A DNA stretch of 64,000 bases, taken from Medicago truncatula (taxonomy: Eukaryota; Streptophyta; Magnoliopsida; Fabales; Fabaceae). Every line of letters starts with the position of its first letter. Position 1 is the first letter of the stretch. The notes beneath the pieces were generated by a model. The model was not told the origin of the DNA. It saw only the letters and a list, made by a program, of their open reading frames with translations, and did not search any database. The translations under genes were made by a program, and so were the position numbers. This document shows, in pieces, positions 11,802-46,644 of this stretch. The stretch spans positions 37,672,576-37,736,575 of the forward strand of contig NC_053043.1 in the NCBI RefSeq assembly GCF_003473485.1, written 5' to 3'.

Positions 11802-12734
11802 CTACTTTCTCTGCGGAAACCATTTACGCCAATGTAAACTATGACCTCCCGTAACACATAATTTATCTTTTTTATTTCGTACGGGTCGTTGGTTTTGCTC
11901 TTGCTCTTCCTCGTGCTCTTCCTGTTCCATATCCTCGTCAGGAATTTCAACACCATCATTAGTTTCCATAGTGACTTCATTTTGCACTTGTGAAGCTGAG
12001 TTGGTCCAGATTTCATTAACGAAGTCATCGTCATTAAACCATGCTGCTAGACTTTCTATGGTATTAGTTTGTGAATTTGGCCATTGAGGTGCGTAACTTG
12101 TTTGGGGATAGTTTACAATGTGTGGAGGGGTTGGTAGGTTGAACGAGGAGCATTGTGATTGGTCTGGGTAACTGGTTTGTGTGGTGTACTGAGTTGGATT
12201 GAAGTCATCAAATGGATAGTTTGATGTTCGGGAGCTTTCTCCATGATGACTTTGTTGAGAATAGGTTGGATATGGGATTGGGGTATTATGTAGGATTTGG
12301 TTTGTGGGTTGTGGCGGTGATTGGTAAGTTTGGTTGTAGTTGTAGTTGGTGGATGGGTTAAAGCTTTGGTCAAAGTTAGTGGGTGGAGGTGTCATGAATT
12401 TGTTATAGGGTGGAGGTGTATTTGATCATATATTTTCATCTGGCACCGTATAAGTTTCTGGCACTGCAGGATAGTCACGCGACAATCCTACTAAAATTCT
12501 TGCACATGCTTGCCTTGGGTTTGACAATAATACTTCTCTAGAAAGCCATAGATGATCTCCGAAAAATTCCCAATACCATGCAAAATATTGACGATTTGGA
12601 TAAACCTCATGGTTGTACCGAACACCGTGAAATGCTAATTGATGACGTTGGTTCCAGTTTTGGACTTGACGTTGGTTCCACATGACAAGCAACGTCGTTG
12701 AGTCGTGAAACTCTTTGATTAAGGGAACACGCAA
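11802..12734 (-). pseudogene. Plant mobile domain (PMD)-like gene fragment in the MULE
   Basis: One frame runs from 12734 to the stop at 11802, broken only by a TGA at 12428-12426. The N-terminal part contains GRLRVPLI just upstream of the first Met and ..WNQRQ...NRQYFAWYWEFFGDHLWLS, resembling the end of PMD domains found in plant proteins and MULEs. The remainder is a Pro/Gln/Asn/Thr-rich linker, an acidic stretch (EQEEHEEEQEQ) and a basic tail with TGGHSLHWRKW. The N-terminal two thirds of a PMD protein is missing. Family assignment is by pattern recognition; the function in transposition is unknown. Confidence 0.55.
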
Positions 12735-13368
12735 CCTACCTGTTACACCTATAGTTCAATCAACCTACTATAGGCTGGCATGTCTCTTTGCTGATAGGGC
12801 TCAAAAAGCGTTTGCAAGGGTAGGTTCCGGAGATTTGTTTAGTGAATATTGCCAAAATGCGATTAAGGATGACATTGTTAAGTCCAACACCCATCATGTC
12901 GAACAGTTTGACCGAGAAAGGTATACCTTCTCAGTCCATGAGACCGTCAACTACAGGGAGGGAAGGCCAATGGGAACTTTCAAGGTGGACCTACGAGCGG
13001 GGTGGTGTGATTGTGGGAAATTTCAAGCTTTACATTTGCCTTGTTCCCATGTCATAGCCGCGTGTTCTTCATTTCGCCATGACTACACAACCCTTATTCC
13101 AGCTGTGTTAAAAAACGAGAGTGTTTACTCCATCTACAACACAGCCTTCAAAGTAGTCCAAGACAAGAGTTATTGACTCCCATATGACGGTCCCGTGCTT
13201 TGCCATAATCCAAACATGCGAAGACTAAAGAAAGGTCGACCCAATAGTACCCGCATAAGGACTGAAATGGACGAGGAGGTGGTAGAGAGGACTCCGACAC
13301 CGAGACAGTGTGGGTTGTGTCGGCATACCGATCATATTAGAAGAAATTGTCCGAGTATAAATAACTAG
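12715..13368 (+). pseudogene. MULE transposase C-terminal fragment (SWIM + CCHC zinc fingers)
   Basis: The plus-strand frame from 12715 encodes a SWIM-type zinc finger, WCDCGKFQALHLPCSHV (C-X-C ... C-X-H), typical of the C-terminus of MuDR/FAR1-like transposases. It is interrupted by TGA at 13174-13176. Reading through in the same frame gives a basic linker and a CCHC knuckle CGLCRHTDHIRRNC before the stop at 13366-13368. The catalytic DDE domain is absent. The 5' end overlaps the opposite-strand PMD fragment by 20 bp, suggesting that an internal deletion joined the two genes. Confidence 0.8.
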
Positions 13369-24403: not shown

Positions 24404-27400
24404 ATGTCAAACGACGCCGTTTCGTTTCTATTCCTCATCACAATCTTCTTCGGTTGCTTTCTCTCCACTGACTCCTACTCCGAAATCCTTCTCCCAACTC
24501 AACTCCACCGTATCTCATCACCGGTCACTTGTCCCGCGCCGGACCCTAATCTCTACTACCAGCCGGTCATCGGAATTGTCAGCCATCCCGGCGACGGCGC
24601 CTCCGGTCGACTCAGTAATGCTACTGACGCTTCTTACATCGCTGCTTCGTATGTTAAATTCGTTGAAGCTGCCGGTGCTAGAGTTGTTCCCCTCATTTAT
24701 ACCGAGCCAGAGGAGATACTTCTCAAGGTATCACTCTCAATTTACTCTTACCCTCACAAAAATAGTTTGTTAGGATAACGATCAATTTAGTGTGTGATTG
24801 CTTCCAATTTCGGAGAGGTAGCAAAATTACTGCTTTGTATTGAGCACAAAAGATTAATGAAACGGTAACTTGTTAGCAACGTTGCCGGTGTTGGCTTGAG
24901 ACCTTGGAGTGTGCTTCTCCTCAAAGTCTCAGGTTCGATTCTCCCCCCGGTGTCAACTAGTAGATAAATCTGAAATGAGAAGAGGTTTACATTGTGAGGA
25001 TAAAATTTTAAGAAAACAGGTTATATTCTTCAATTAATTTTACTTATAGATGTTCTGGTAAGTCTGTACTGCTTAGTGTTGAACTGCAAAAAGTGGGGAA
25101 GAAAAAACTCTTTTAGATTCTGTGTTGACGTAAACTTTTATTATTTTTATATTTAGAAATGTTTGTGATGATATTGAGTACATTTTTGCACTCACTGCAG
25201 AAGCTCGAATTGGTAAATGGGGTTCTCTTCACTGGTGGATGGGCTAAAGATGGGTTATATTTTGAAACTGTTAGAAGAATATTTAAGGTATCTGTTTATT
25301 ACTGTTAATATTATTACATGCATTTGTCAGAAGCCTCAGTACTCCCCCTCAGTGCAAAGGTTCTTTTTGCACCGGGGGTGTACTGATGCTTCTAGAATAC
25401 AAAATATGAATAGAGGGTGGAAGAGTTATTATCGATGACTTGTAGTGCTTGTAATTTTGGTAGATGTGTTTGTTACAAAGATATCAAGGAATGCATTGTT
25501 AATGTATGGATTACTTTAGAGAAAAATTCTTTTCACATAAGTTGTATTATTTGTTGGTGCAGAAAGTTTTAGAGAAAAATGACGCTGGAGACTACTTCCC
25601 ATTATATGCCACCTGTTTAGGCTTTGAACTTATATCAATGATTATAAGCGAGGTGAGTTCGCCTTCTAGTTAGTCTTGTGTATGAGATACATTTTACCCA
25701 CCATTTTGCTTCTAAGTGGATACAGTTTATATGTCTCATCATGTTGCCACGTGCTGTTAACGTTGCTGTTCATAATTTCGTTTGGATTTCAAATTACCAA
25801 CACAGAGAAAGTAGAAAAATTAGCTATTATACCGAATTGGTATTGTTTATTTATTTTATGCATATGTTGAACAATATTCATGATTTGAAATGTTGAGAAA
25901 AGTTGAAGACTTGTTACAATTTACAGCACATTCCAGTCCTTCTCTTTCTACATTTACAAGTTTGGCTTTTTTTTCTTGATCATAGGACAATAATATTCTT
26001 GAAGAATTTAGTGCAAGAAATCAGGCAAGTAGCCTTCAATTTGTGAAGAATGCCTATATAGAAGGATCTGTATTTCAGAGGTAAACAATCTATGTAAATA
26101 GTATTTTTATGAAGTTGCACTTGGATCTCTCATTCGACATAAAATGAGGTTGGAAGGTGGACTTTAAACTTAAATTGTTGTCTCAATCTTCCCTTCAACA
26201 GATATGCTAAAGAATTGGCCAACTTTTTTTTGTTGATGTTTTCTCTATATCAATTCTGGTGTTTGATTTACCCTTCTTTTGCAACAGATAATCTCCTATC
26301 CACTAAATTCCTTCTAGTTTTCATTTCTTCATTTTGATGAATTTCTTCTTTTGTTTTACTTTAAAAAAAATACAGAGGTCTTATTTTGTTATCTTTATTA
26401 TACCACTATTATCAATGACATAGCATTCATCTAAGAGAGAATTTCTTGTGTTGACATAAACCTAACACACAGCATTAAGACTCAACAATTCATTAGCTTG
26501 AAGATGATTCCTATAAAACATCATATTAGTTAAATACACTTGATTCCTGACATAATCGGTGACAAATGGAATGGCTTTCATTTAGCCATGGATGAAGTAA
26601 GAGATGAAAAAGAAAATGGATGAAAAATATAAGCATATTTAGAGAAAGATAAATAAGAGATACGATAGAAGATTAACAATGTCAGTATACAAGAAATTCT
26701 CTCAATCAAACCTGTAAATTTCATTTAGACATGTTTTTTTTTAAGATTTCATTCAGACCTGTTAAGTCTGTGTTTATACAAAAAAACATGCGGGTTTTTT
26801 TTCTAAAAAAGTTCTATCATTCAAAAGTCTTTAATTTACACATTCTTTAACATTTTTGTCACTGAGTTAATATTCAAGTTATGGACCACTTCTCTTTTCC
26901 TGCAGGTTTCCTCCAGACTTGTTAAAGAAGTTGAGTACAGATTGTCTTATCATGCAAAATCATCGTGTGAGTATACATAGACCTAGTCAATAAATTATTC
27001 TTCAAAATGATAAATTGTCATAAATTGGAGTATTCATCTACTAGATCCATATCGTTGATAATCCATTTGGTTTTATGTTGGGTAGATCAACCATTGAAGT
27101 TATACACTTGGTACGGAGACTAATGGAGAGATATTGGGTATGGAAGGGGTGGAGGCATATGCATGGTTTTTAGTGATTTAGAAAAAGGTGTATGATAGAG
27201 TATCTAGAAAGGTAATGTGAAAGACTATAGAAGAAATGAGTTTATTTGTCTACATTTAGATTGTGTTTGTTGAACATATCCAAAATGGTGCCTCCATATA
27301 TACTTCATGAAAATTATATAATCTTAGTTTAGTTACACTGTCAATGTACAAGGACGATGAGAATGTTATGATGGATTATTGTTATACAAGACAAGATAGA

Positions 27401-28678
27401 CTTGGAAATGCAATCACTAGAGAGAAATTTGGGGCAGCTTTCATTGTGAACAATATGGTAAAGTCTCAACTTAGATGGTTTAGTATACAGATAATAGTGC
27501 AATAGTTAGAGGTATAGGCAGACCAAGGAAAACCATATGCCAAACTATTGAAAGAGATTTAGGGGTAAATAGTCTTATTTTTAAATTTAATACATGACAA
27601 GGTTTTATAGGTAGTTTATGGCATGTCTTATTATTGACTCTATCTTAGTTGAAAAACAAAGTTCAATGAAGTTTATAATATGTACATGTTTGAAATTTAG
27701 TACAATGTTTTTATATCTAATTTTGGTAATGACAGTATGGCATCTCCCCAGCAAAGCTCCTGGGCAATAAAAAATTAGCCAGTTTTTTTGAGATCTTGAC
27801 AACTTGCAATGATGAAGATAACAAGGTATTCAATGTTATGTTCTCATATGAGTTGATATAGTTCGTAAATCAATCTGTTTAATATCATAACCTTTAATGA
27901 GCTTCCTTCATGAATAAAATCTAATACCAATTGTAATTGTTTTAGGTTTATGTTTCCACAGTACGTTCACGTAACTATCCGGTGACTGGCTTCCAATGGC
28001 ATCCAGAGGTGAATAATAGTTTTTCCTGTGCGGATTCTGTGATGGCAGTATTGTTAATTTCAATTCCCAAATACCATTTAATCAAGCTCATAACTACAGT
28101 CGTGGACTACTATTAGTTCATCTTTATTATAGCTATGTAACATCCTTGTTAAATGATGCAATAGAAAAATGCTTTCGAATGGGGCACACCAAGTATTCCA
28201 CACACGGAGGATGCCATTCGGACAACTCAGTATGTAGCAAATTTTTTAGTCAGGTCAGGACCCCAGAATTTGATAGTATCGTCATCTGTTTCTTATTAAA
28301 TTTATGCTTACTGTTTACAGTTATGTGAAGTATTATTGACCATTTATGCTTATCTTTGAAACACACTTACTAGCTGTGAACGATTCAGTTCCATTTTCTA
28401 TGTTTTTCTTCTCATCTTATCAATGGCTAACTTGACATTTTTCTACTTTCACTGATCTGGTTCCAGTGAAGCGAGGAAATCCTCAAAGAGACCTGTAGCT
28501 CAGGAATTGCGAGACAATCTCATTTACAATTACAGACCCACTTATTGTGGGAAGGCAGGGTAAGCCCAAGATTTCTCTGAAACTTCGCCATTTTTATGTT
28601 TTGCATGTGAAGTTGGCTTATGTATATGTTTGTGCTTCTTGTAGGAAAGGATTCGATGAAGTTTATATATTTGAATAA
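24404..28678 (+). CDS. GGH: GGH-1: gamma-glutamyl hydrolase (folylpolyglutamate hydrolase), ten exons
   Basis: Peptidase C26 enzyme that removes gamma-linked glutamates from folylpolyglutamates, known to act in the plant vacuole. Exons: 24404-24727, 25201-25287, 25563-25652, 25986-26080, 26906-26966, 27736-27825, 27946-28008, 28165-28253, 28467-28559, 28645-28678; these total 1026 nt, 341 residues. All introns are GT-AG and the phases agree across the array. Residues 1-25 form a hydrophobic signal peptide. RPVIGI-type start ([17 protein letters not shown]), LFTGGWAK, nucleophile Cys155 in ATCLGFEL, and His268/Glu270 in GFQWHPE are all present. The C-terminus is DEVYIFE. Intron 1 holds a SINE-like repeat and intron 5 an RTE LINE scar. 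No defect was seen. Confidence 0.96.
24870..24965 (+). repeat. SINE-like repeat in GGH-1 intron 1
   Basis: Contains TTGGCTTGAGACCTTGGAG (A-box region) and downstream GGTTCGATTCTCC (B-box like), the arrangement of a tRNA-derived SINE head. Diverged SINE-like pieces also occur in GGH-2 intron 1 near 31760-31850 and 32185-32260. Confidence 0.5.
27030..27570 (+). pseudogene. RTE-type LINE reverse-transcriptase scar in GGH-1 intron 5
   Basis: Plus-strand frames include [20 protein letters not shown] (near 27065-27130), matching the QFGF..GRST.EAI..VR.L block of RTE-clade reverse transcriptases. A C-terminal [15 protein letters not shown] (near 27515-27560) matches the conserved 'GRP.KTW...I..DL' tail. 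The sequence between is eroded by stops and deletions. The same scar lies in intron 5 of GGH-2 (34185-34300 plus 34866-35000) and, shortened, GGH-3 (about 45420-45510). Confidence 0.7.
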
Positions 28679-37090: not shown

Positions 37091-40000
37091 ATGTCAAGCC
37101 ACTTTGTTTTGTATCTCTTCCTTATCACAATCTTCCATTGCTTTTTCTTCTCTAACTCTCACTTGAAAATTCTTCTCCCAACTCAACTCCGCCGTATCTC
37201 ATCGTCGGTCAATTGTCCTGCACCGGACTCTAGCCTATACTACCAGCCGGTTATCGGAATTCTCAGCCATCCTGGTGATGGTGCCTCTGGTCGCCTCAGT
37301 AATGCTACTGACGCTTCCTACTTGGCTGCCTCATACGTTAAATTTGTGGAGGCTGGTGGTGCTAGAGTTGTTCCACTTATCTATACTGAGCCATGGGAGA
37401 TACTTCTTAAGGTATCCCTCTTACAATAAAACATTTTTTTAAGATGTTTGCTTCCACTTTTATTGATTCTTTGACATGTTTAAATATTACCGAGAGTAAT
37501 TGATTTTGTCTATAAAATTGATTTCACCCCGCACTTTTTATTGCTGACGAAGGAATTTTGATGACTGGACCTTGCCATATGGCACTTAGTTGCCATGTCA
37601 TTAATGATTGAGTACAACGTGACCGCGATATTAAACCTTAAGTTTGTTAATGATTCCATTAAGAAACACCGGACAAATGATTCTCTCCTTGCTGCAAGAA
37701 AACATGATGCAACAGTCTCGTTTTGTCGTGGCTGAACCATTCCATGTCTCATGAAATTGAAACTTCAAAGAAATTGAAAAAAAATCCAATATTTTCCAGT
37801 AACTGATTAAAAATTGTTATTTTTTAATTCTTAGAAATATTTGTGATGATATTGAGTACATTTTTGCACTCACTGCAGAAGCTCGAATTGGTAAATGGAG
37901 TTCTCTTCACTGGTGGAGTGGCTAATGATGGTTTATATTTTGAAATTGTTGGAAGAATATTTAAGGTATCTATTATTACTGTTATAGAGGGTCGAAGTAC
38001 TTCCCATAGTCAAATATACATGCATTTGTTAGATACAAAATACGAATAGAGGGTCGAAGTGTTGTTATCGAAACTTGTAATTATGTTAGATGAGTTTGTT
38101 TCCAATATGTCAAGGAATGCTTTGTTGATGTATTGATTTATGTATTTTTTGATTTTACATAAATTGTATTTGGTTGTTGGTGCAGAAAGTTTTAGAGAAA
38201 AATGATGCTGGAGACTACTTCCCATTATATGCCACCTGCTTAGGCTTTGAACTTATAACAATGATTGTAAGCGAGGTGAGTTCGCTTTCTTATAGTTTTA
38301 TGATTTCTGAGAGGATGCAGCGTATATGATGTCTTATTTTGTTACCTTGTACTGTAAACCTTGTTATTCATAGTTTCTTTTGGATCAAAAATTCACAGCA
38401 TATTATATCGACAAATTACAACAGTTTCCAGTCATTTTTTTGTACGCTTACAAGTTTGGTTGTTCCTTTTCTTGATGATAGGACAACGATATTCTTGAAG
38501 ATTTTGCAGCAGAAAATCAGGCTAGCAGCCTTCAATTTGTGGAGAACGTGAATATAAAAGAATCTGTATTTCAAAGGTAAACAAAACAATCTGTGTATAT
38601 TGTATTGTCTTGGATCCCTCAATGGACATGTTGAGGAATCGGCCAACTTTATTTTGTTGATGTTTTCTCTATATCAAGTATGCTGTTTGATTGATTCTTC
38701 ATGTATTAAGTATGACTCTTGAATTTCCTCCCGAGCTCTGTTAGGTTCTCTTAACATCTAAGTGGTGGCCGATCCCAATCCATGTTGGTCTCAATCCCAG
38801 AACTTCCTGGTTAGCTCATCCTCCATGGGATTCATCTCTAGAGAATCCTAACTAGTCTGTGGAGCTTTTCTTTCCGGCTCAGCTCAACTTGGCACTGTTC
38901 ATAGGAGGTTAGCGAGATAGGGTGAGAATCGAGATCTAACACCTAGATCCAGGAACGACGAAGCTATGGAAGGTTGGAGAAACGTAGATCTGACAAAGGA
39001 TGAAGAAGAAGGATTCGCACTTGAGGAGACAGAGGTCAGCGCTGATGAGGTCTTCAAGAACTCACTAGTTGGTAAGCTCTGGACCACAAACTCATTCAAC
39101 GTCAGAGTGTTTAAGCAGGTCATAGTCCAAGCATGGAGGCTTAAAAATCCGGTTGAAGTACAAGATCTAAATAAGAACTTGTTCTTGTTCCGGTTCTCAT
39201 CGAAGCGGGATGTCGAAAATGTCGTTAAAAATGGTCCCTGGAGCTTCGACAGGAACTTACTGGTGCTTAAAAGAACGTCGGGGGAAGAACAGCCTTCGGA
39301 GATGGCGATGAACACGGCAGAGTTCTGGACTAGAGTTTATGATTTACCGTTGAAGCTTCGGACGGATGCAACAGCGAGAAAATTAGGAGACACGATTGGG
39401 AAGTTTGCTGAAGTGGATACCAAAGACGGAAACCGTATGGGAAAGTTCTTAAGAGTTAAAGCTGAGATTGACCTAATGAAACCTCTCAAACGAGGCACTG
39501 TTATCAAGTTTCAAGGGAAAAGTCTGCGAGTTTTTTTCAAATACGAGAGGTTACCTAATTTCTGCTACACTTGTGGAAGGATTGGTCACCAAATCAAAGA
39601 TTGTGAGAAGGAGGATGGACAAGAAGACGTGGACTATGACGAAATTGAAGAAAAGAACCTCCCTTTTGGCTTATGGTTGAGGGCTTCCCCTTTACCTAGA
39701 AGTACTGGTGAAGTGAAGATGGAACAGAGTTCAGGATCATGCAGTAAGAGTTTATTCACTGAGGGAAGCAACAGTAAAATAACACCGAGAGGAAGTGATC
39801 TGGAAGTGGAAGTGGAACAAACACTGGCTGAGGTACTGGCAGAGGCAACTGGGAAGAGAGCAATAGTAGGAAAGACACAAAGGGAAGTGGAGAGTGTGGC
39901 AGAGTCTTTAGGGAATGTGGCCATTTCTGGAGAGAAACTTCCTCTATTTGACTTGGGGTCCCAAACTAAGACAAAACCAGGCCTAAAAACAGGGAAGAGA

Positions 40001-43000
40001 TGGGCAAGGAAATCGGGTCTAAGGAAATCGAAGAAACAAGAAACAATGGTGATTGAGTTAGGGAAGAGGCAACTTGCTGATGTTCATGTTGTGGAGGCAG
40101 ACCCAATGGAGCTATGCATTGGTGAAAAGAAAAGAAGGAACAAGGGGAGAGGTACTAGTTTACAAAGTGAAAAGGTGGTGTTGGATGACCAACACTGCCT
40201 AGCCCAATGAAAATACTAAGCTGGAACTGCAGGGGGTTGGGGAACCCTCGGGCAGTTCGAGCCTTGTCAAGGCTCATTAGTAGAGAAAATCCCCAAATTG
40301 TCTTCCTTATGGAGACTAGATTAAAGACTTCGGAGCTGACTACTTTGAGAAATAAATGGGAGTACAAAAGTGGCCTGATAGTTGATTGTAGGGGAGTTGG
40401 TAGAGAAAGAGCAGGAGGTGTTGCATTATTCTGGCACGAAAACATAGACATTACCATTAAGTCGTACTCTCTGAACCATATCCATGGTCAATGTCTAGAT
40501 GAAGAAGAAGATGAGAAGTGGGACATCACATGTATCTATGGACATCCGGAGGAACACAACAAAAAGAAGACATGGCTGCTGCTAAATCAATTGTCTTCCC
40601 AAGTTGGAAGGAAATGGATATGCCTTGGCGATTTCAACGATGTTCTTTCGACGGAGGAAAAGATTGGAGGAAATCCCCGGACGCTGCCTCAACTATCTCT
40701 AGGGCGTCAAGCTGTTGCTGATTGTAGCCTAATTGACCTGGGGTTTGATGGCTATAAATTCACGTGGTCAAATGGAAGAGAAGGGATTGACAACATTCAA
40801 TGTCGACTGGACAGAGTGTTTTCAACTGAAAGTTTTACCGACAGATTCAACCCAGTAAAAGTCCTCCACCTCCCTCGGTTCGGTTCTGATCACGCAGCAA
40901 TTCTCACAATCCTAGAGACACCATCTAACAGACCACCCAGGCGTAGAAAGAAAGTGTTTAGATTTGAAGAAAGCTGGACAAGTGAGCAGAAATGTGAAAG
41001 CATAATCAGGTCCTGCTGGGCAAAACCACAACTGTCCTGTTATGAGAAATTTGAATTATTACAAGATATGGGGAAGGAATTCAATGACCATAGTGTGGGT
41101 ACAATCAGGAAGGAGATTAATAAGTTGGAAAAGTGTCTAAATGATGGTAATTTATGGGCAGAAAATGCAGAGGCCATGGGCAGATACAAGATGATGGAAA
41201 AACAACATGAGGAACTCCTTAAATTGGAAGAAACGATGTGGCGACAACGGAGCAGAGCTGTTTGGTTGAAAGATGGGGATAAGAACACAAAATTTTTCCA
41301 CAGCAAAGCTAGCCAAAGGAGGAAGGTTAACGAGATAAAGAAGTTGAAAGACGAAACCGGGAACTGGTGCAAGGGTGAAGAAAATGTTGAAAGACTTTTG
41401 ATCACTTACTTCAATAACCTGTTCACATCTTCTAATCCCACTGCTATAGAAGAAACATGTGAAGTGGTGAAAGGAAAGTTGTCCCATGAACACATAGTTT
41501 GGTGTGAGAAAGAATTTACTGAAGAAGAAGTCCTTGAAGCTATTAACCAAATGCACCCAGTCAAAGCCCCGGGTCCAGATGGCCTCCCTGCATTGTTCTT
41601 CCAAAAGTATTGGCATATTGTGGGGAAGGAAGTGCAACAAATGGTCCTCCAAGTCCTCAACAACAGTATGGAAACTGAAGAGCTTAATAAAACCTTCATT
41701 GTCCTTATCCCTAAAGGAAAGAATCCGAATACTCCAAAGGATTACCGCCCAATTAGCCTTTGCAATGTTGTCATGAAAATCATCACCAAGGTTATAGCCA
41801 ACAGAGTTAAGCAGACTCTCCCGGATGTAATTGATGTGGAGCAGAGCGCTTTCGTCCAAGGCAGGCTCATCACAGACAATGCACTGATAGCAATGGAGTG
41901 TTTCCATTGGCTGAAGAAGAAGAAGAAAGGGAAAAAAGGAGTCATGGCACTTAAGCTGGATATGTCGAAAGCCTATGACAGAATTGAGTGGTCTTTTGTT
42001 GAAAATGTTTTGAAGACTATGGGGTTTCCTACAAGACTGGTGAAGTTAATTATGAGATGCATCACAACGGTTTCATACCAAATTCTCATCAACGGTCAAC
42101 CTAGCTCTCCTTTCACTCCTGAGAGGGGTTTAAGGCAAGGGGATCCACTCTCACCGTATTTGTTTGTTCTTTGTGCAGATGTTCTATCGGGGCTTTTACG
42201 AGACGATGTATCGAAGCAACACATTCATGGTGTGAAAATAGCAAGGACTGCCCCCCAAATATCTCATTTATTCTTCGCAGATGACAGCCTCCTCTTCGCG
42301 AGAGCTAATTCAGAGGAAGCGAGTAAGGTCCTATCCATCCTAGCCAGATACGAGCGTGCCTCGGGACAAGTGGTGAATCTTGACAAATCTGAAGCAACCT
42401 TTAGCCGAAATGTGCCAAGCAATGATGTTAAAATGATCTGTGAAATGATGCGAGTTAAGGCAGTGGAAGCTCAGTCAAGATACTTAGGTCTTCCCGTCCC
42501 CTATGGAAGATCTAAGAAGGTAATATTCACTGGTGTCATGGATAGGGTCTGGAAGAAATTGAAGGGATGGAAAGAGAGATTCTTATCAAGGGCAGGGAAG
42601 GAAACTCTCATCAAATCAGTGGCTCAAGCGATTCCGAATTACATTCTCAGCTGCTACAAGTTACCTGATGGATGCTGTAATGAGATTGACTCCATGTTGG
42701 CAAAGTTTTGGTGGGGATCAAAGGAGGAAGAGAGGAAGATACACTGGCTGAGTTGGGCAAGACTCTCGAAATCCAAAGGAAAGGGAGGTATGGGATTCCG
42801 AGGTTTCTGTGATTTTAACAAAGCTTTGTTAGGGAAGCACTGTTGGAGGCTCTCAAATGGAGATGATTCCCTGCTTGAGAAAGTGCTAAAGAGCAGATAT
42901 TACCCCCGAGGAAATTTCATGCAGGCAAAGGTTGGATACCAACCGAGCTATGGTTGGAGGAGTATACTTGGTGCTCGAGAGGTGGTTGAGAAAGGAGGGA

Positions 43001-46000
43001 GATGGTTAGTCGGTGATGGAAAAAATATAAAAATTTGGAAGGATGCCTGGATGCCCAACCTAGAACTGTTGAGGTCAAAGAGTGATAACTGTATGTTGGG
43101 GGAAGATGCTTTAGTGGAGGAGCTTCTGGATCTAGACACTAGGCAATGGAATAGGTCTCTAATTTACCACAGTTTTAACAGGCAGGAAGCTCTCAAAATT
43201 GTTAGTATCCCTATTTCCCTAAGATTCCCGAAAGACAAGTTGTGCTGGCATTGGGAGAAAGATGGATGCTATTCTGTTCGGTCTGCATACCATCTGATGA
43301 GTAATCATAGAGAAAATCTTCAGCCTGGGCCGTCCTCTCACAGAGACGAAAGATTGTGGAAAGCAATTTGGAAAGCTTCGATTCCAAATAAGATTAAAAA
43401 TTTCATGTGGCGGCTGGCTAAGAATATCCTCCCAACAAGATCCAATCTGCAAAGAAAAGGTATTGCTCTTGACACCTCTTGCCCCTCTTGTCACTCTGAA
43501 ACCGAAACTGCGGAACATTTGTTCATGAATTGCAATATATCCAAACTGGCATTGTTTGCTTCGCCTTTGGGCTCCCATACTCCTTTTAATGTTGCTCTGA
43601 ATTGCTGGTTGTTAGAATGGTTGTCTTGCGCTGATAAGGAAGGTTCACAACTGTTCTGCACTATCCTTTGGAAGATTTGGTCCGCAAGAAACCAAGCTGT
43701 CTTCAACGGGTCCGTTATTGACCCTGTCAACTTAGCTCAAACAGCTGTTCAGTTTCTTCAAGAATTTAATGAAGCCAATGCCAAAGCTAGACCGCAACAA
43801 CCTAGCAGAAGACAGACTGCAGAAGGGCCAACGCCGGATGGCTGCCACCACATGTTTGTGGATGCAGGATGTTTTCCTAATGGGACAACAGGATGGGGAC
43901 TGATTTTGAAGAACAATGAAGGAACCGTTGTTCACAGTGAATGCAAGTTGGATACTGTGGAGGTGGATCCTTGTTTGGCTGAAGCACTTGGGGTGAGATG
44001 GGCTTTAAGTACAGGTGTTAGCTTAGGAATCCGTAGGCTCAAACTCTCTAGTGATGCTCTGAATGTAGTGAATTGTGTCAACAGGTGTGCTATTGTGGCA
44101 GCCATAGATCCTGTCATTAGTGATTGTTGGAATTTAATAGAACAAATCCCATTTGTAATGGTTAATCATGTTAGTAGAGAGCTGAATATTGAAGCTCATA
44201 ATTTAGCCTCTTTGGCAAAGAATCTTGGATCTAGATGCTGGCAGGGAAATGTCCCTCCAAATCTATTCCCTTTTCCTAATTGTAACTTTTCTGTAGGCCA
44301 AGTTCAGGCTCCTTCTACTGTTTAATTTAAAGAAGTTGGAACATCAAAAAAAAAAAAAAAAAAAAAAGTATGCTGTTTGATTTACCCTTTTTTGCAACAG
44401 ATAATGCTTTGTCCATTAAATTCCTTCTACTTTTCATTTCTTCATCTTAAATGAGATCTTTTTTTTCTTGCTTTAAAAGAAACATAACTCTTATCTCCTG
44501 GTCTTCATAATACCACTATTATCAATGATAGTATTCATCTAAGAGAGAATTTATTGTATTTCTTAGAAATCGTGGTTGGGCCTAACACAAACCCACAAAA
44601 CCGGCTTGTGAGGTGGTGGGAATTGCCCTCACTTATAAACACATTGTCAGGCCATCACCTATCCGATGTGTAACTCTTAACACACCCTGTAACGCTCAGG
44701 ACTGGACATCTAAAGCGTGGACATAAATGGCGGGTGGCCCGATAACGGAAACGTGGCCCAATGGATCTTGGAGAGGCTCTAATACCATCTTAGAAATCGT
44801 GGTTGGGCCTAATTAACAGTATTGACATTGACCTAAGGCATAGCATTAAGACCCAACAACCCGTTAGTTGAAATTTTTTTCCTATAAAACATATCGTGTA
44901 ACTTGATTTCTGACTTAGTTGGTGACAAAAGAAATGGTTTTCAATTTAGCGCATGGATGAAGCAAGAGAGAAGAAAAACAAAATAAATGTAAAATATAAG
45001 CATATGTAAAGAAAGATGGCCAAGAAGTAAGACAGAAAAGAGGGAGTACGTTAGACACATAATGAGAAGTTAGAAGATGAACATTGCCTTGCCACTGTAC
45101 AAGAAATTCTCTTAATCAAACCTGTAGATTTCATTCAGACGTGTTAAGTCGGCGTTTACACAACAAACCGTGTGGTTCATGTTCTAAAAGTTCCAATCAT
45201 TCAAAAGTATTTAATTTATACGTTCTTTAACATTTTGTCACTTAGCAAGATATTAACCAGTTCACCTTTCCTGCAGATTTCCTCCAGACTTGTTAAAGAA
45301 GTTGAGTACAGATTGTATTGTCATGCAAAATCATCAAGTGAGTATATATATACACAGTCAATAAGTTATTCCTCAACATGATAAATTGTCATAAGTTAGA
45401 ATATTCATATGCTAGATCCACACAACTGATAATCAATTTGGTTAGAGGTAAAGAGAGACCAAGGAAAACCATATGCCAAAGTGTTGAGAGTGATTCATCG
45501 GTAAATGCCCTATTATTTAACTTAATGCATGACTTGGTTTTGTAGATAGTTCATGGCATCTCTTCCATTCTTCAGTTACATGAACGCTTTATGTTTCCAA
45601 AGTTGTCATTATTGACTCTATCTTAGTTCTTCAAAAACAAAGTTTAATGTTTGAATCTTAGTACTATGTTTTTATATCTAGTTTTTGTCATGACAGTATG
45701 GCATATCCCCAGTAAAACTCCTGGGAAATCAAAAGCTATCGAGTTTTTTCGAGATCTTGACAACTTCCAACGATCAAGATGATAAGGTAAATCAATGAAA
45801 TGTTCCCTTTATGAGGATATATGGTTTGTAAATCGATTTTTTTCATATAATAACCTTTAACTAGCTTCCTTCGTGAATAAAGTCTAATACCTATCGTACT
45901 TGTTTTAGGTTTATGTCTCTACAGTACGTTCACGTAACTATCCCGTGACTGGCTTCCAATGGCATCCTGAGGTGAATATTGATTTTTCACGGGCAGACTC

Positions 46001-46644
46001 TGTGATTGCAGTATTGTTAATTTTCATTTCAAAATCTTATTTAATTAAGCTCAGAACTACAATCATGCACAACTTTTAGTTCATCGTTATTTTAGCTACG
46101 TAACATCCTTGTTAAATGATGCGTACAGAAAAATGCCTTCGAATGGGGCTCACCAAGCATTCCACACACAGAGGATGCCATTCGAACAACTCAGTATGCT
46201 GCAAACTATTTGGTCAGGTCAGGACTCAAGAATTTTATAATATCTTCATCCATTACTTACTAAATTTATGCTTACCATATACAGTGATGAGAAGTATTAT
46301 TGACCTTTTATGCTTTTCTTTGAGACACTATTGCTAGCTATGAATGATCGAATTCCATTTGCTACGTTTTTTTCTTTTACTTATCAATACCTAACTTGAC
46401 ATTTTTCTACTTTCATGGATCCGGTTCCAGTGAAGCGAGGAAGTCCTTAAACAGACCAGTTGCTCAGGAATTGTTAGACAATCTCATATACAATTACAGA
46501 CCCACTTATTGTGGGTATGCAGGGTAAGCCCAAGTTTTCTTTACAACTTTGCCATTTTTAAGTTTTGCAAGTTGTGAAGTTGCTGATGTAGATGTTTATG
46601 CTTTTTGTAGGAAAGGATTCGACGAAGTTTATATATTTGAATAA
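37091..46644 (+). CDS. GGH: GGH-3: gamma-glutamyl hydrolase with a full LINE in intron 4
   Basis: Same enzyme as GGH-1. Exons: 37091-37411, 37879-37965, 38186-38275, 38482-38576, 45277-45337, 45697-45786, 45909-45971, 46129-46217, 46431-46523, 46611-46644; 1023 nt, 340 residues. Signal peptide at the N-terminus. Start set at MSSH by alignment; a further in-frame Met at 37040 lies close to the TATA-like site. Cys154 (ATCLGFEL), His267 and Glu269 are kept. FTGGVAND replaces the FTGGWAK of the paralogues, losing a Trp next to the GG turn, and a few other changes appear in exon 4 (NIKESVFQR). Intron 4 is 6.7 kb because of a sense-oriented LINE; all coding exons and splice sites remain intact, so the gene may still be expressed. 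Confidence 0.93.
38677..38692 (+). repeat. LINE target-site duplication, left copy
   Basis: AGTATGCTGTTTGATT, repeated exactly after the poly-A tail at 44367-44382. In GGH-1 intron 4 the empty site is recognisable by the same context (TATATCAATTCTGGTGTTTGATTTACCC near 26246, diverged). Confidence 0.92.
38966..40210 (+). CDS. LINE ORF1: DUF4283/CCHC RNA-binding protein
   Basis: 414-residue nucleic-acid-binding protein of plant L1-type LINEs, thought to coat the element RNA in the ribonucleoprotein. A DUF4283-like domain covers about residues 28-175 (FRFSSKRDVENVVKNGPWSF at 75-94). A zinc knuckle CYTCGRIGHQIKDC (Cys200, Cys203, His208, Cys213) follows. The rest is a charged, low-complexity C-terminus rich in Lys/Arg/Glu. 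Its TGA stop overlaps the ATG of ORF2 (ATGA). The Met at 38966 opens the long frame and begins an acidic N-terminus usual for the family. Confidence 0.9.
   Translation: MEGWRNVDLTKDEEEGFALEETEVSADEVFKNSLVGKLWTTNSFNVRVFKQVIVQAWRLKNPVEVQDLNKNLFLFRFSSKRDVENVVKNGPWSFDRNLLVLKRTSGEEQPSEMAMNTAEFWTRVYDLPLKLRTDATARKLGDTIGKFAEVDTKDGNRMGKFLRVKAEIDLMKPLKRGTVIKFQGKSLRVFFKYERLPNFCYTCGRIGHQIKDCEKEDGQEDVDYDEIEEKNLPFGLWLRASPLPRSTGEVKMEQSSGSCSKSLFTEGSNSKITPRGSDLEVEVEQTLAEVLAEATGKRAIVGKTQREVESVAESLGNVAISGEKLPLFDLGSQTKTKPGLKTGKRWARKSGLRKSKKQETMVIELGKRQLADVHVVEADPMELCIGEKKRRNKGRGTSLQSEKVVLDDQHCLAQ
40207..44325 (+). CDS. LINE ORF2: endonuclease, reverse transcriptase and RNase H polyprotein
   Basis: 1372-residue enzyme that nicks target DNA and reverse-transcribes the element RNA at the nick. 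Apurinic-type endonuclease at about 1-235, with Asn7 in SWNCRG, Glu36 in METR, Asp142/Asn144 in GDFND and Asp228-His229 in GSDHAAI. Reverse transcriptase at about 495-760, with Asp585 in KLDMSKAYDRIEW, GLRQGDPLSP at 641-650 and FADD at 690-693. A zf-RVT finger with Cys1092, Cys1095, His1104 and Cys1109. A C-terminal RNase H with Asp1219 (FVDAGC), Glu1259 and Asp1283; the fourth position reads AHNLA, as is frequent in plant copies. All catalytic motifs are present, so the protein looks competent. Confidence 0.95.
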   Translation: MKILSWNCRGLGNPRAVRALSRLISRENPQIVFLMETRLKTSELTTLRNKWEYKSGLIVDCRGVGRERAGGVALFWHENIDITIKSYSLNHIHGQCLDEEEDEKWDITCIYGHPEEHNKKKTWLLLNQLSSQVGRKWICLGDFNDVLSTEEKIGGNPRTLPQLSLGRQAVADCSLIDLGFDGYKFTWSNGREGIDNIQCRLDRVFSTESFTDRFNPVKVLHLPRFGSDHAAILTILETPSNRPPRRRKKVFRFEESWTSEQKCESIIRSCWAKPQLSCYEKFELLQDMGKEFNDHSVGTIRKEINKLEKCLNDGNLWAENAEAMGRYKMMEKQHEELLKLEETMWRQRSRAVWLKDGDKNTKFFHSKASQRRKVNEIKKLKDETGNWCKGEENVERLLITYFNNLFTSSNPTAIEETCEVVKGKLSHEHIVWCEKEFTEEEVLEAINQMHPVKAPGPDGLPALFFQKYWHIVGKEVQQMVLQVLNNSMETEELNKTFIVLIPKGKNPNTPKDYRPISLCNVVMKIITKVIANRVKQTLPDVIDVEQSAFVQGRLITDNALIAMECFHWLKKKKKGKKGVMALKLDMSKAYDRIEWSFVENVLKTMGFPTRLVKLIMRCITTVSYQILINGQPSSPFTPERGLRQGDPLSPYLFVLCADVLSGLLRDDVSKQHIHGVKIARTAPQISHLFFADDSLLFARANSEEASKVLSILARYERASGQVVNLDKSEATFSRNVPSNDVKMICEMMRVKAVEAQSRYLGLPVPYGRSKKVIFTGVMDRVWKKLKGWKERFLSRAGKETLIKSVAQAIPNYILSCYKLPDGCCNEIDSMLAKFWWGSKEEERKIHWLSWARLSKSKGKGGMGFRGFCDFNKALLGKHCWRLSNGDDSLLEKVLKSRYYPRGNFMQAKVGYQPSYGWRSILGAREVVEKGGRWLVGDGKNIKIWKDAWMPNLELLRSKSDNCMLGEDALVEELLDLDTRQWNRSLIYHSFNRQEALKIVSIPISLRFPKDKLCWHWEKDGCYSVRSAYHLMSNHRENLQPGPSSHRDERLWKAIWKASIPNKIKNFMWRLAKNILPTRSNLQRKGIALDTSCPSCHSETETAEHLFMNCNISKLALFASPLGSHTPFNVALNCWLLEWLSCADKEGSQLFCTILWKIWSARNQAVFNGSVIDPVNLAQTAVQFLQEFNEANAKARPQQPSRRQTAEGPTPDGCHHMFVDAGCFPNGTTGWGLILKNNEGTVVHSECKLDTVEVDPCLAEALGVRWALSTGVSLGIRRLKLSSDALNVVNCVNRCAIVAAIDPVISDCWNLIEQIPFVMVNHVSRELNIEAHNLASLAKNLGSRCWQGNVPPNLFPFPNCNFSVGQVQAPSTV
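44367..44382 (+). repeat. LINE target-site duplication, right copy
   Basis: Exact copy of the 16-bp sequence at 38677-38692, directly after the poly-A tail. Intron 4 sequence homologous to GGH-1 resumes at once. Confidence 0.92.
44562..44812 (-). mobile_element. TRIM-like insertion flanked by a 24-bp direct repeat, GGH-3 intron 4
   Basis: An identical 24-bp stretch (starting CTTAGAAATCGTGG) occurs at 44562-44585 and 44789-44812. On the minus strand the first-read copy is followed immediately by TGGTATTAGAGCC, close to the tRNA-Met primer site TGGTATCAGAGC. The corresponding place in GGH-1 intron 4 lacks the block. It looks like a short LTR-derived (TRIM-like) unit. Similar phrases occur at 5440-6170. 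Confidence 0.5.

Follow-up and report, generated by a model that had tools for sequence, protein, structure and literature searches.

Predicted RNA hairpins around the AUGA overlap of a recent L1-type LINE in Medicago truncatula: a candidate module for coupled termination-reinitiation

We analysed a window of 64,000 nucleotides (nt) from Medicago truncatula (NCBI RefSeq assembly GCF_003473485.1, contig NC_053043.1, positions 37,672,576 to 37,736,575, forward strand), in which a long interspersed nuclear element (LINE) of the L1 type occupies intron 4 of a gamma-glutamyl hydrolase gene, GGH-3. The two open reading frames (ORFs) of this element meet in the tetranucleotide AUGA, and this overlap is flanked by two predicted RNA hairpins, termed here HP1 (upstream) and HP2 (downstream; Table 1). 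Observed were the overlap and the predicted hairpins, the fixed positions at which the latter recur in related elements, the covariation in their stems and a stability in excess of that reached by synonymous recoding; the first-pass annotation of the window had missed the AUGA with its flanking folds. Comparison between elements, rather than experiment, suggests that the hairpins act in translation and in what manner they might do so: they probably constitute an RNA module for coupled termination-reinitiation, through which ORF2 would be produced. A broader proposition, toward which we lean slightly, is that plant L1-type LINEs carry a previously undescribed RNA element, in which one hairpin ending 6–7 nt before the AUGA and a second beginning at +18 would bracket the post-termination 40S subunit prior to its restart at ORF2, and which would have been kept across LINEs that are only 36–65% like the present one in ORF2.

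ORF1 of the window element remains open right up to the overlap. Among 5,619 segments of 35 nt, the lowest non-overlapping folding energies were -21.2 (40224–40258) and -18.5 (40167–40201), against a mean of -3.9; these two folds flank the AUGA, which is itself mostly unpaired. In a coarser scan of 588 segments, one over HP2 took fourth place and one over HP1 fifth, and the mean pairing probabilities of the two hairpins were 0.98 and 0.99. Synonymous recodings matched the stability of HP1 in 4 and that of HP2 in 2 of 5,000 trials, and with uniform codon choice the counts were 11 and 14 of 5,000. Since these segments had been chosen for their stability, the test was repeated on a fixed stretch of 60 nt either side of the AUGA: for 35-nt folds the upstream value was reached by 7, the downstream value by 0 and their sum by 0 of 4,000 recodings, and with 50-nt folds by 29, 0 and 0 of 4,000. 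The junction value was equalled at no position away from the junction (1,105 positions, every 5 nt). ORF1 contains 26 ATG triplets, its own start included, which makes leaky scanning to ORF2 implausible. No Rfam family matches the junction at its gathering score, the only match being a chance-level one of 12.7 bits, and a literature search, whose coverage was incomplete and is no proof of absence, returned no plant LINE described as having a structured AUGA junction.

The comparison was extended to 20 further LINEs with a preserved ORF2 start (L010–L029), all of them, like every relative used here, from the element's own genome, and showing 36–65% ORF2 identity to the window element. With the latter counted, they fall into a window-like (n=11) and a distant (n=10) subclade. 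Their 126-nt junctions align without gaps and AUGA is present in 21 of 21; in every relative the reading frame that ends in its TGA runs open over the preceding 20 codons, apart from a TAA directly before the TGA in L018; further upstream ORF1 is broken or changes frame in several of them (e.g. L013, L014 and L016). In the full set, 95.0% of 280 cells were paired, with 29 double-change cells against 11.7 in shuffled alignments, and the covariation score was 0.334 versus 0.160 (0 of 500 shuffles reached it, and slid versions attained at most 0.115); either subclade taken alone agrees with this structure. In 19 of the 21 elements no more than 4 of 1,000 recodings equalled the upstream fold. HP1 of the distant subclade contains a bulged base and, in most elements, a loop of 3 nt, as against a straight stem with a 4-nt loop. 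As the outermost HP1 pair (17–44) is formed by 17 of the 21 elements, the gap between HP1 and the AUG is 6 or 7 nt.

On a tree built from ORF2 DNA outside the junction, with end branches of median 0.33 changes per column, the state of HP1 pairs changed repeatedly (17–44 three times, 20–41 and 21–40 four times each), as did that of HP2 pairs (71–99 twice, 74–96 seven times). A covariance model found all 21 junctions in 22 sources at 73–99 bits, with nothing else above 15.6 bits; 20 of these 21 junctions had gone into the model, and the result thus demonstrates specificity, not discovery. The block conserved at the DNA level frequently begins with HP1: eleven of the 28 non-self DNA matches begin at query positions 1479–1483, and HP1 starts at 1481.

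A wider sample of junctions was gathered with the ORF2 motif WNCRGLG, which lies outside HP1, in the 5' arm of HP2, and occurs 103 times in the genome (reversed control, 0). Sixty of 100 listed places were examined: 12 belonged to the set, and eight of the other 48 loci repeat it, leaving 40 non-duplicates; AUGA stands at the expected place in 44 of the 48. A junction was scored as coupled if it had AUGA and at least 20 open ORF1-frame codons, and a hairpin as present if it had at least 9 pairs and an energy of -10 kcal/mol or lower. By these definitions 26 of the 28 coupled non-duplicate junctions carry HP1, against 0 of the 12 uncoupled ones (Fisher p 1.6e-8). At a cut-off of 30 codons the coupled junctions with and without HP1 numbered 25 and 1, and the uncoupled ones 1 and 13; at 60 codons the figures were 18 and 0, and 8 and 14. 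Some of the uncoupled junctions may belong to truncated or decayed copies, where the frame and the hairpin would have been lost together. Pairing is seen in 92.6% of cells across the 47 distinct coupled rows, compared with 81.7% after shuffling and no more than 42.6% in slid versions. Double-change cells number 84, against a shuffled mean of 24.9, a shuffled maximum of 41 and at most 19 in slid versions. Pair 71–99 is C-G in 34 and U-A in 13 of these rows and is never broken. ATGA at the ORF2 start with no upstream hairpin was seen in L044, L047, L052, L061, L063, L064, L067, L068, L070 and L074, and eight of these ten have 10 or fewer open ORF1-frame codons upstream.

Several observations weigh against a role of this kind. 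All the relatives descend from a common stock within one genome. In the full set the number of double-change pairs (6 versus 4.7) was matched by 83 of 500 shuffles, and the number of pair types did not rise above shuffles either there (354 of 500) or in the distant subclade (192 of 500). Recodings reached the upstream fold in 19 of 1,000 cases in L018 and 70 of 1,000 in L029; for the downstream fold the counts were 235 of 1,000 in L028 and 17–70 of 1,000 in 12 others. L018 has an in-frame TAA directly before the TGA of its AUGA, and the coupled junctions L064 and L067 lack HP1. The hairpin cut-offs were set after the folds had been seen, and a search motif within the 5' arm of HP2 biases the sample for HP2, though not for HP1. 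The base at -3 is C in the window element and in 9 of the 21 elements overall, and A or G in the other 12, so that a weak start context is no part of the design. HP2 is not specific to coupling: all seven outer pairs are found in 12 of the 14 junctions without HP1, ten of them uncoupled (of 12). Given this retention, the coupling may be the task of HP1, and HP2 may be there for start choice in general or for the peptide. Finally, a termination upstream ribosome-binding site (TURBS) contains a UGGGA motif complementary to 18S rRNA; this motif is absent from the 100 nt upstream of the AUGA, and a TURBS of the calicivirus type is rejected on this ground.

If the hairpins do serve coupled termination-reinitiation, the LINE RNA would be bicistronic and ribosomes would end ORF1 at the UGA of the AUGA. 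After a long ORF, a reinitiating 40S subunit would have to be kept near the AUG. HP2, lying just ahead of the subunit, would block onward scanning, and HP1 would refold behind the post-termination subunit or touch it, such that the subunit is kept at the AUG; HP1 might thus act either from behind or by contact with 18S rRNA or eIF3. According to the available text of the respective reports, hairpins starting about 12–18 nt downstream help weak starts (PMC2001202), hairpins of 12–20 bp and -19.9 to -34.1 kcal/mol do so in Arabidopsis reporters (PMC10499604), and AUGA and UAAUG overlaps have been described for coupled reinitiation (PMC5972666, PMC5902531). Coupled termination-reinitiation is thus already known; it is the structured variant in plant LINEs, supported by comparison, that appears to be new.

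The known systems resemble the junction in part, as far as the accessible portions of their descriptions go. The poplar LINE family Celine shares with the window element a DUF4283-bearing ORF1, an ORF2 with endonuclease and reverse transcriptase (RT), overlapping ORFs, a poly-A tail and target duplications (10–30 bp in Celine); it differs in being centromeric and, in the example given, in having untranslated regions (UTRs) of 635 nt (5') and 189 nt (3') as against 273 and 20 nt here, and the available text describes no junction RNA structure (PMC11288735). SART1 of the silkworm is likewise a non-LTR (long terminal repeat) element with a stop-start overlap and a stable downstream hairpin, located 34 nt downstream (PMC5902531). 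In the M. truncatula element the overlap is AUGA instead of UAAUG, there is an additional upstream hairpin, the downstream one begins at +18 and the host belongs to another kingdom. The junction of L018 reads TAATGA, with TAA in the ORF1 frame directly before TGA, so that it contains a UAAUG overlap too, as in SART1. The calicivirus TURBS also combines an AUGA overlap with an upstream RNA element, in that case of 40–87 nt, whereas here a 28-nt hairpin is accompanied by a downstream one (PMC5902531, PMC5972666). Finally, the AUG-ds hairpins of Arabidopsis mRNAs similarly follow soon after a start codon, and HP2, with 14 bp and -21 kcal/mol, is within their range of size and energy; those hairpins, in the part of the source available, concern scanning subunits and upstream AUGs of leaders, while the start considered here lies inside a bicistronic RNA (PMC10499604).

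Other explanations have to be weighed against coupled termination-reinitiation. One that is compatible with it, and which we regard as possible though tentative, is that the locus is of interest as an ordinary fresh LINE insertion altering GGH-3 expression through intronic heterochromatin. The LINE lies in sense orientation within an intron of a constrained gene, and in ibm2 mutants of rice and Arabidopsis heterochromatic introns lead to premature polyadenylation, according to the available text of PMC7145194. The ratio of observed to expected CpG, 0.43 in the LINE versus 0.57–0.64 around it, tells more probably of the LINE's past than of this site. It is unlikely that the hairpins serve instead as a signal by which ORF1p or ORF2p would recognise or package the LINE RNA (cis preference). 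The conservation of RNA structure within the element and the persistence of HP2 at uncoupled ORFs would fit such a signal, but HP1 tracks the arrangement in which ORF1 runs into AUGA (the 26 of 28 versus 0 of 12 junctions above), and its gap-free spacing from the AUGA in 21 of 21 elements is something that a packaging site would not need. We consider it improbable that the hairpins are by-products of conserved peptides (VLDDQH, WNCRGLG) or of base composition, with no role as RNA: although HP2 overlaps the conserved WNCRGLG motif and HP1 encodes an ORF1 C-terminus that is semi-conserved within subclades, synonymous recodings seldom reach the stability of the hairpins, compensatory changes are seen, and the hairpin is kept where the peptides of the subclades differ (VLDDQH versus, for example, AEPGHQA). 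Production of ORF2 as an ORF1-ORF2 fusion by -1 frameshifting, with the hairpins as stimulators, is very improbable, for although the reading frame of ORF2 is -1 with respect to that of ORF1, and a strong hairpin follows, the two frames share an open stretch only at 40189–40207 and no XXXYYYZ heptamer starts within 40150–40211.

Table 1. Features of the LINE, its ORF1-ORF2 junction and its insertion site (window coordinates)
Feature	Position	Strand	Remarks
LINE of L1 type	38693–44367	+	two open ORFs, poly-A tail, target duplication
5' UTR	38693–38965	+	273 nt; first ~31 nt without relatives
ORF1	38966–40210	+	414 residues; DUF4283 and CCHC zinc knuckle (zf-CCHC_4), Pfam
HP1	40173–40200	+	12-bp upstream predicted RNA hairpin, 28 nt; ends 6 nt before ORF2 AUG
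AUGA	40207–40210	+	ORF2 start overlaps ORF1 stop; identical letters in 20 relatives
ORF2	40207–44325	+	1372 residues; endonuclease, RVT_1, zf-RVT, RVT_3 (RNase H-like), Pfam
HP2	40224–40258	+	14-bp downstream predicted hairpin from +18 of ORF2; outer 7-bp stem conserved
HP3	40259–40275	+	7-bp predicted hairpin; 5–7 of 7 pairs in window-like subclade, 2–4 of 7 in distant
3' UTR	44326–44345	+	20 nt
Poly-A tail	44346–44367	+	22 A; last two common to right duplication
Left target-site duplication	38676–38692	+	15–17 bp; empty site in paralogue A
Right target-site duplication	44366–44382	+	copies match 17/17
Host gene C (GGH-3), coding part	37091–46644	+	10 exons; intron 4 = 38577–45276
Empty site in paralogue A intron 4	26190–26452	+	aligns across insertion point (about 26257–26276)

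By its domain content the element is classed as a plant L1-type LINE. Both ORFs are open and the tail is an unbroken run of A, as the first-pass annotation had stated. Its account of the domains holds for the endonuclease, RVT_1, zf-RVT and RVT_3 (ribonuclease H, RNase H) regions. Residues 3–882 of ORF2 align to human L1 ORF2p, the nearest solved relative (phmmer, E 9.6e-47), and matched positions include N, E, D/N, D and SDH of the endonuclease and D and FADD of the RT, which we take to be catalytic. The C-terminus matches RVT_3 (E 2e-13); the full set of the RNase H motif is D-E-D-D, and by inspection D, E and D are in place and the fourth acidic position is H (EAHNLA). The endonuclease part alone and the RNase H part gave nothing useful in phmmer searches against PDB. 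Smyshlyaev is said to have described plant L1s with RNase H in 2013. No relatives were found in IMG/VR, and the contigs of GTDB yielded one match, of 21%, in a contig of an Aliarcobacter metagenome-assembled genome (L001).

At the 5' end, the start as judged from candidate duplications lies at -1510, -1486 and -1475 from ORF2 in three of ten window-like relatives, compared with -1514 here, and 5' truncation is for this reason thought unlikely; the other seven have no candidate duplication, or a short doubtful one. The first 31 nt (38693–38723) were covered by no non-self DNA match in the genome, and may be filler of the 5' junction, copied from the target. This segment contains AAGTATG, which is also found in the target duplication. 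The shortness of the 3' UTR could point to premature 3' truncation, which we reject because 3' UTRs of 13–20 nt occur in 15 of 21 elements (the window element with its 20 nt included), the other six not being safely measurable. TC precedes the poly-A in 14 of the 15 measured 3' UTRs (window element and L010–L029).

The element is recent and structurally complete. Its youth, proposed earlier from the lack of disabling lesions and the perfect duplication, is upheld chiefly by the integrity of the ORFs: with assumed rates of 7e-9 or 1.5e-8 substitutions per site per year and indel ratios of 0.1–0.2, an unselected copy of the ORFs would on average wait 0.05–0.21 million years for its first lesion, with 95% upper bounds of 0.16–0.63 million years (12 parameter sets). 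The perfect duplication on its own is compatible with 6–14 million years. The suggestion that the element may be a live source is not supported. In its own genome of 429,922,655 bases in 42 contigs, where only the best candidates were scored, ORF2 gave 36 matches, with 34 candidates scored, and among these the best near-full-length matches other than itself were 65% and 63% identical; partial ones reached 79% over residues 422–1368 and 77% over residues 648–1047. With the DNA of the 5' part as query, 29 matches were obtained; of the non-self ones among those scored, the best showed 73% identity over 1.3 kb and another 79% over 452 bp, and among the best non-self matches 90% identity was attained only over 121 bp, at the ORF1-ORF2 junction. 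The genome-wide look for near-identical copies thus turned up neither a daughter nor a recent parent among the scored candidates, a result that is strong but not absolute, since only the best candidates were scored. Other families contain near-identical pairs (L020/L021, 99.88% over 4,318 bp; L022/L027, 98.8% over 4,824 bp; L019/L023, 96.7% over 4,236 bp), and LINEs of this genome have therefore moved recently. L021 looks 5'-truncated, with a 14-bp candidate duplication 207 nt before ORF2.

The element entered intron 4 of the gamma-glutamyl hydrolase gene by target-primed reverse transcription, as seen from its poly-A tail and its duplication at a formerly empty site. The duplication, AAGTATGCTGTTTGATT, previously given as a perfect 16 bp, is indeed free of mismatches and measures 15–17 bp, in that its first two A may be part of the tail. 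Paralogue A (exons at 24404–28678) keeps the uninterrupted site, and the flanks in gene C, with one copy of the duplication retained, align continuously to it; the introns of paralogues B, D and E gave no alignment at the insertion site. The earlier identification of the host as a folate hydrolase gene with a sense-oriented LINE in intron 4 is borne out, as is the view that exons and splice sites were untouched. Gene C has 10 exons, GT/AG introns and an open frame of 340 residues with zero inner stops, and its product contains Peptidase_C26 and matches gamma-glutamyl hydrolases in PDB (best E 4.9e-63). Intron 4 has indeed grown to 6.7 kb (6,700 bp, compared with 825, 473 and 228 bp in paralogues A, B and D). 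Gene C is the third of a tandem array at 24.4–28.7, 31.0–36.0, 37.1–46.6, 47.4–50.1 and 61.25–61.9 kb of the window; A, B and C are open over 10 exons, D has no exon 8 match and is damaged in exons 1 and 2, and E is a fragment. The ratios of nonsynonymous to synonymous substitution rates (dN/dS, NG86), 0.083/0.399 for A-C and 0.107/0.373 for B-C, indicate that these genes have been constrained. Elsewhere in the window, an ORF with a SWIM zinc finger at 12715–13176 is presumably a remnant of a Mutator-like transposase.

The insertion thus provides two paralogous folate-gene introns, one filled and one empty, which can be used for studying intronic LINEs. As regards the translation of ORF2 in plant LINEs, the available text of the Celine paper names reinitiation and an internal ribosome entry site only as possibilities (PMC11288735). 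A compact, covarying junction module of the kind predicted here is a precise and testable cis-element; it would aid the annotation of LINE ORFs and could serve as a bicistronic expression device in plants.

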